Shown here: one piece after another, positions 7,491 to 26,689 of the stretch
Layout of the letters: each line of letters opens with the position of its first letter
How positions within the stretch are numbered: position 1 is the stretch's first letter
Source: Candidatus Acidiferrales bacterium
GTDB taxonomy: Bacteria > Acidobacteriota > Terriglobia > Acidiferrales > UBA7541
Direction of reading: 5' to 3'
NCBI GenBank assembly: GCA_031296075.1
Contig: JARLGK010000132.1
Span: 1 to 38,272 of the forward strand
DNA: 38,272 bases
Program-made: the position numbers and the translations under genes
The notes under the pieces: generated by a model
What the model was told of the DNA's origin: nothing
Databases searched by the model: none
What the model saw: the letters and a program-made list of their open reading frames with translations, nothing else

Positions 7491-7542
7491 GGTTTCAGGT
7501 TTCAGGTTTCAGGTTTCAGGTTTCAGGTTTCAGGTTTCAGGT
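7491..7542 (+). repeat. Heptamer tandem repeat (GGTTTCA)x7
   Basis: Seven perfect head-to-tail copies of GGTTTCA (7491-7539) are followed by a partial GGT. It begins ten bases after the mutase stop codon. The copies are identical, so the array is probably young or prone to slippage. It lies directly outside the left inverted repeat of the GxxExxY cassette. Confidence 0.97.
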
Positions 7543-7551
7543 CTTGCCTTT

Positions 7552-7596
7552 GCGCTACCTCTGTGGTCTCTGTGCCGTCTCTGTGAACTCTGTGTT
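7552..7596 (-). repeat. Left inverted repeat of GxxExxY cassette (CACAGAG family, reverse orientation)
   Basis: The 45-base tract carries four CTCTGTG cores. Its reverse complement matches 8014-8058 at 37 of 45 positions with no gap. On the minus strand the heptamers are arranged heptamer-2-heptamer-4-heptamer-2-heptamer. The inner end is 24 bases from the GxxExxY start codon. Confidence 0.9.
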
Positions 7597-8013: not shown

Positions 8014-8058
8014 AACACAGAGACCACTGAGAAGGCACAGAGTCCACAGAGACACCGC
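8014..8058 (+). repeat. Right inverted repeat of GxxExxY cassette (CACAGAG family)
   Basis: Heptamers are CACAGAG (8016), CACTGAG (8025), CACAGAG (8036) and CACAGAG (8045), with spacers of 2, 4 (AAGG) and 2 bases. The tract is the inverted partner of 7552-7596 and ends six bases before the start codon of the B12-subunit gene, so it also supplies that gene's leader. Confidence 0.9.
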
Positions 8059-11431: not shown

Positions 11432-11435
11432 CCAC

Positions 11436-11463
11436 GGAAACACAGAGGCACTGAGACACTGAA
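11436..11463 (+). repeat. CACAGAG-family intergenic repeat, short copy
   Basis: CACAGAG, CACTGAG and CACTGAA occur at an eight-base period right after the HMG-CoA lyase-like stop. It faces the opposite way to the tract at 11585-11624, so the two bracket a 120-base spacer. Confidence 0.7.
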
Positions 11464-11584: not shown

Positions 11585-11624
11585 TTCTGTCCATCAGTGT
11601 TTATCTGTGTTCATCTGTGGCTAC
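11585..11624 (-). repeat. CACAGAT-type intergenic repeat (ten-base period)
   Basis: Read on the minus strand, CACAGAT, CACAGAT and CACTGAT recur at exactly ten-base steps with three-base spacers. This is a subfamily of the heptamer repeats seen at several other places in the window. It ends 15 bases before the hydratase GTG. Confidence 0.75.
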
Positions 11625-15288: not shown

Positions 15289-15312
15289 CAGCAATAAAAG
15301 AAGGAAACATCC

Positions 15313-15406
15313 ACCGCAGAGACGCAGAGGACGCAGAGAAGAGCAACGTCAAAAACGGAACAGGAACACAGAGTCCACAGAGAAGACACCGAGACCACAG
15401 AGAAGG
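15313..15406 (+). repeat. Composite CGCAGAG/CACAGAG intergenic repeat
   Basis: First block: CGCAGAG at 15315, 15323 and 15332. Second block: CACAGAG (15367), CACAGAG (15376), CACCGAG (15387) and CACAGAG (15396), with spacers 2, 4 and 2. From the first to the last heptamer the unit spans 88 bases, and the second block starts at offset 52. The copy at 26508-26600 has exactly these numbers. It fills the convergent gap between hutH and the hydrolase gene. Confidence 0.9.
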
Positions 15407-15419
15407 CTCTGAGTCTTCT

Positions 15420-26479: not shown

Positions 26480-26507
26480 TTCACAACGAGGCTAAATCGC
26501 AGGACTC

Positions 26508-26600
26508 ACCGCAGAGGCGCAGAGAGCGCAGAGAAACCGCAACGATAACCGTGAGACCCACCACAGAGGACACTGAGAAGGCAAAGTGAGCACGGAGAAA
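26508..26600 (+). repeat. Composite CGCAGAG/CACAGAG intergenic repeat, second copy
   Basis: CGCAGAG at 26510, 26518 and 26527; then CACAGAG (26562), CACTGAG (26571), CAAAGTG (26582) and CACGGAG (26591) with spacers 2, 4 and 2. Total span 88 bases and second-block offset 52, identical to the copy at 15313-15406. Both share GCAACG in the middle. It lies in the convergent gap between ygfZ and the dinB-family gene. Confidence 0.9.
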
Positions 26601-26689
26601 GATTAGAACTCACCGCGCCCTTCCTCCGCTAGGGCAGGGAGCCGCGGAGACGGCGAAATAGAAAATCGACGAGGGATTCTTCGACTGCG

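Follow-up and report, generated by a model that had tools for sequence, protein, structure and literature searches.

Two composite repeats at 15315 and 26510 of the window (the whole stretch of 38,272 nucleotides analysed here) are each composed of two adjacent directional units, A and B, of ~52 bp. They are probably non-autonomous copies, made through the action of a nuclease, of a dispersed directional repeat whose arrays belong to the GxxExxY element, a putative element in which a small PD-(D/E)XK nuclease gene lies between two such arrays in inverted orientation. Directly supported are the association of arrays with the nuclease, the specificity by motif class, the matched ends at most orthologous loci, the existence of dispersed copies and the lack of the first composite in the nearest relative; our confidence is high in the array-nuclease association and moderate in the mechanism.

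The original prediction described two composites of identical internal geometry, and heptamers at 0, 8, 17, 52, 61, 72 and 81 with a span of 88 bases are indeed present at both positions. The first composite has three CGCAGAG heptamers followed by CACAGAG, CACAGAG, CACCGAG and CACAGAG (score 48/49). Its unit A (15304-15349, + strand, outer ends approximate) comprises a leader, CGCAGAG at 0, 8 and 17 and a degenerate fourth heptamer (GCAACG), and its unit B (15355-15408, + strand) has CACAGAG-type heptamers at 0, 9, 20 and 29 (15367-15402). In the second composite three CGCAGAG heptamers in unit A (26499-26544, + strand, outer ends approximate) precede a more decayed unit B (26551-26602, + strand) with CACAGAG, CACTGAG, CAAAGTG and CACGGAG (score 45/49). 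Five shuffled windows reach at most 31/49 for the seven heptamers, and the window contains exactly two full composites and no third. The GCAACG core noted previously is common to both copies, at offset 28 in one and 29 in the other, and occupies the site of the fourth, decayed heptamer (CGCCGAG) in other unit A copies. Both composites are flanked by convergent genes, as had been stated, with an aromatic amino acid lyase and a hydrolase-like ORF at one and GCV_T and DinB at the other. The closest relative (G009) lacks the first composite, the two convergent genes nearly abutting at that junction, and the site of the second holds only a short, degenerate array-like stretch in that genome. No target-site duplication or exact unit boundary is definable from the empty-site alignment with G009. 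Further arrays that the original prediction did not mention occur at 7548-7594 (- strand), 8016-8051 (+), 11433 (+) and 11603 (-). The first two of these flank the nuclease gene, the decisive context, which falls beyond the coordinates covered by the original prediction, and are described below. The array at 11433-11455 (CACGGAA-CACAGAG-CACTGAG at 0, 8 and 16) is missing from G009 save its first GCC, and that at 11603-11619 is of the CACAGAT type (0, 10), a second GxxExxY-type motif, with a version 7 bp shorter in G009.

Unit A has the form ...GACTCAC-CGCAGAG-A-CGCAGAG-RR-CGCAGAG-AAAG-CGCCGAG with CGCAGAG at 0, 8 and 17 and the degenerate fourth heptamer at 28, and unit B the form AAGACTTAC-CACAGAG-NN-CACNGAG-AAGG-CACAGAG-NN-CACAGAG with heptamers at 0, 9, 20 and 29. 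Each is a directional heptamer array and is not self-complementary. Inspection of 28 further stretches around repeat matches in the source genome of the window (G000; 3.19 Mb in 241 contigs) shows the units occurring alone or as A-B, B-A, B-A-B and A-B-A with a single orientation per site. The offset from A to B is exactly 52 in five composites, both window copies included, and 58-61 in others; that of B-A composites is 50-53 in several and more in others. As several B-A composites show approximately the same offset, the 52-base offset most likely reflects the length of a single unit, with two units placed head-to-tail. The 16 A and 26 B units of G000 align free of gaps (one or two being register artefacts), and the heptamers are conserved at 97% in A and 93% in B, figures inflated by the choice of copies on heptamer score, compared with 69 and 63% for the linkers. 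The spacing is particular to each genome, with [0,8,16], for example, present in nearly all G035 copies examined. Conserved spacing with drifting sequence had been taken to suggest selection on geometry. The fixed spacing is real and defines the family, but it does not prove selection because the copying of a master unit with rare indels gives the same result.

The only GxxExxY gene of the genome (7621-7992, + strand; TIGR04256, PF13366, PD-(D/E)XK nuclease fold) lies in the window between the genes for the large subunit and the B12-binding subunit of methylmalonyl-CoA mutase. It is bracketed by two arrays of unit B type directed away from the gene, on the left at 7548-7594 (- strand; heptamers at 0, 9, 20, 29 and 40) and on the right at 8016-8051 (+ strand; 0, 9, 20 and 29). 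No other inverted pair occurs among the G000 sites examined. The element encodes only the PF13366 protein, with no recognised transposase gene inside. Profile scores are 137.9 bits against a cut-off of 22 (Pfam) and 146.2 against 35 (NCBIfam). The PD-(D/E)XK catalytic residues E27, D67, E77 and K79 are all invariant in 14 sequences; in 54 sequences E27, D67 and K79 are invariant and E77 is conserved in at least 90%. No solved structure of the family was found by sequence search. A structure model calculated from the 54 sequences has a pLDDT of 96.4, compared with 38.7 for a single-sequence model, which was of no use, and the nearest solved folds are Cas4 SSO0001 (best, Z 10.0) and lambda exonuclease. 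The predicted fold shared with these enzymes does not amount to a demonstration of GxxExxY function. To our knowledge, GxxExxY proteins are common and have no assigned function.

The enclosure of the gene by inverted arrays is a general feature of the family. For each gene the 250 bp on either side were compared for inverted repeats, and a TIR was called at a score of at least 13 reached by none of 100 dinucleotide shuffles. Within the class, TIRs are present at 72 of 90 GxxExxY genes and at none of 157 pseudo-genes or 149 other ORFs from these loci. A sequence search of titled genome records supplied 77 loci, in which TIRs occur at 56/77 GxxExxY genes compared with 2/146 controls, and the positive loci belong by record title to eleven phyla: Acidobacteriota, Chloroflexota, Bacteroidota, Planctomycetota, Verrucomicrobiota, Cyanobacteriota, Pseudomonadota, Nitrospinota, Hydrogenedentota, Armatimonadota and Spirochaetota. 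Nearly all of the GxxExxY TIRs in these loci contain heptamers of the form CRC-N-(G/A)-A-(G/T) or ACAGGAT. Array pairs ~400 bp apart that emerged from pattern scans of G029 and G052 proved to enclose GxxExxY reading frames. Loci of PF05635, a four-helix-bundle family related to the 23S rRNA intervening-sequence protein, have no CRCRGAG clusters and were rejected as a negative control when the unbiased TIR test revealed 7-bp arrays of their own, which is why pseudo-genes and other ORFs became the controls. TIRs of tandem 7-bp units (TCAGTGG, AGCTATC, TTAGGGA and others) are present in 24 of 28 PF05635 loci compared with 0 of 56 pseudo-genes, and the motif differs from that of the GxxExxY arrays (L042-L071, L010, L011). 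In a separate observation, some GxxExxY genes (L015, L017 and L175) are accompanied by two arrays rather than one, on a single side or on both; these are often inverted pairs, as if the gene had inserted between or beside complete hairpin units. Viral contigs of 50-80 kb (L316-L319) carry distant GxxExxY relatives with A/T-rich inverted repeats and not heptamer arrays.

The arrays were divided into four motif classes (GAG, AAG, GAT and ACAGGAT) and compared with a tree of 69 GxxExxY proteins, which has few columns and many weak forks. Motif class changes 8 times on this tree, compared with a mean of 31.4 (minimum 26) for shuffled labels and 28.8 (minimum 23) for labels shuffled within host families; the tree requires 33 changes of host family. 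Motif class thus follows the nuclease tree and not the host, an agreement equally expected if gene and arrays were simply linked and moved together. The mutase junction illustrates the match between the two ends. GxxExxY is present between the large and small subunit genes in six genomes of three families (L009, L031, L039, L184, L218 and L220), and in five of the six loci the left geometry equals the right, as [0,9,20,29], [0,8,17,27], [0,8,17], [0,9,18] and [0,8,17], with an extra overlapping heptamer call at 25 in L039 ignored. Geometry and letters of the arrays differ between several of the six genomes, and the matched ends point to concerted evolution of the pair or to replacement of the entire element more than once. 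In five congeners of G000 whose junction could be read (G009, G008, G010, G014 and G005), a gap of 59-74 bp is present there. A clean insertion of the element into the mcm operon was considered and rejected, as gain and loss are inseparable at a junction where the element recurs in other genera and families.

Across the class, 97 of 200 genomes hold GxxExxY. Those rich in CRCRGAG arrays usually do so (34/41 compared with 63/159, P = 5e-7), as do those with CACRGAT arrays (25/29 compared with 72/171, P = 1e-5), genome relatedness being ignored in both comparisons. Some genomes (G001, G023 and G126) have many arrays with no GxxExxY detected, and G000 has 16 CACRGAT matches without a resident gene of matching type, its single GxxExxY gene having CACAGAG-type arrays. 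MAG incompleteness or loss may be the cause of arrays without a matching gene, and the CACAGAT-type arrays of G000 may have been left by a second, lost or missed GxxExxY lineage. Genomes with arrays and no detected gene also agree with a different explanation, that the arrays are the ends of a MITE-like family moved by another enzyme (a transposase or reverse transcriptase that is lost or encoded at another locus) with GxxExxY as a captured passenger. Non-autonomous copies outnumber gene-bearing ones, as this explanation would have it, and a second small gene family, PF05635, lies in analogous 7-bp arrays as if small ORFs were cargo. A passenger role is nevertheless unlikely given that the same cargo gene recurs over the eleven phyla with a motif class that follows its own tree, that PF05635 is paired with a different motif, so that the cargo is not interchangeable, and that TIRs of this kind are lacking at all of the other ORFs in the loci.

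Around 30 loci of the acidobacterial source MAG carry units, singly or head-to-tail. The genome-wide counts for G000 are drawn from pattern and similarity searches: CRCAGAGNCRCAGAG has 24 matches and its reversed form 1, and similarity to a 121-base query yields 27. For CRCRGAGNCRCRGAG the reversed form is an imperfect control, because it too is matched by tandem arrays. Inverted array pairs ~50-180 bp apart are present in G035 and G052; the dispersed arrays of G000 are direct. The evidence on array movement consists of lineage-specific presence and absence. The copies are mostly intergenic, and this placement, together with the kept spacing and the higher conservation of heptamers than of linkers, would also be expected of selected operator or RNA sites, which GxxExxY would bind to regulate itself and other genes or which would act as transcript-end signals, with function maintaining the geometry. 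Such a role is improbable on several grounds. Array presence is patchy even within one genus (0 to 28 matches), and the closest relative lacks the composite of 15313 at the corresponding junction. The preference for convergent gene ends that the window copies had suggested did not extend genome-wide, where 9/26 copies are convergent compared with 22/106 neighbour pairs as defined by a home-made ORF caller (P = 0.19), and selection for convergent ends was set aside as not significant. The copies likewise have no clear orientation relative to tandem genes (8 compared with 4). Neutral spread of short tandem repeats through slippage or homologous recombination, with no dedicated enzyme, would account for the short units, degenerate copies and local head-to-tail placement, but this reading is already disfavoured and very improbable, as slippage would not be expected to place one motif family around one gene family in different phyla, with matched inverted arrays at both ends.

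For copying driven by the nuclease, the GxxExxY protein, or a complex containing it, would recognise the array as duplex, hairpin or ssDNA, and recognition would drive copying or conversion of array units into intergenic sites in a manner analogous to the role thought for RAYT proteins on REPs/REPINs. Two units that settled head-to-tail would then give the 52-base offset. In the RAYT (TnpA-REP) system the enzyme gene is flanked by a short repeat that is also dispersed extragenically as singlets and doublets (PMC3116915). The GxxExxY gene is similarly flanked by inverted copies of a dispersed repeat, with many copies lacking the gene, a repeat sequence tied to the gene lineage and a patchy distribution. 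The enzymes differ, as GxxExxY is a PF13366 protein with the restriction-endonuclease-like PD-(D/E)XK fold whereas RAYT is an IS200/IS605-like (Y1/HUH) transposase, and in place of the short palindrome of REPs the repeat is a heptamer array with linkers, the movement of which we infer from sequence. The best reading by analogy is a RAYT/REPIN-like system with an unrelated nuclease, one that falls outside the RAYT family itself. Bacterial MITEs, for example Chunjie of Geobacter uraniireducens (PMC10969869), resemble the arrays in arrangement, being short, intergenic and dispersed with inverted ends in many genomes; unlike these MITEs, the arrays have no recognised transposase-derived TIR or direct repeats, and the G000 copies are direct arrays. 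The 23S rRNA intervening sequences with the S23/IVP protein (PMC4990558) also have a small ORF between inverted repeats, which bears on the PF05635 arrays; in contrast with these sequences, the GxxExxY arrays are not in rRNA genes, and the protein family and motif differ.

The pairing of gene and arrays in eleven phyla points to a family of small mobile sequences that is widespread and has received little study. Among the papers searched, none links GxxExxY or PF05635 with heptamer repeats, and exact-repeat strings matched unrelated papers only. More tentatively, GxxExxY proteins could be the founders of a mobilisation system. Its nuclease, of a Cas4/lambda-exonuclease-like kind, would bind tandem heptamer arrays specifically, disperse them as miniature elements and maintain the match between the two arrays at its own flanks; four-helix-bundle proteins and their 7-bp arrays would make up a second system, parallel in mechanism. 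The GxxExxY system would be an independent counterpart of RAYT/REPIN built on an unrelated enzyme, and the parallel arrays of PF05635 suggest that tandem-heptamer ends may be a general design. The matched DNA motif gives each GxxExxY lineage a predicted substrate, and the association may account for how one class of hitherto unexplained heptamer repeats between genes arose. The STRR heptanucleotide repeats of cyanobacteria are, as here, dispersed arrays of 7-bp units, and we know of no gene to which they are tied. Directly beside the left GxxExxY array of the window, a tandem heptamer GGTTTCA is present in about seven copies (7494-7541, + strand) at a site with no PF05635 gene, and by eye it resembles the PF05635-type arrays.
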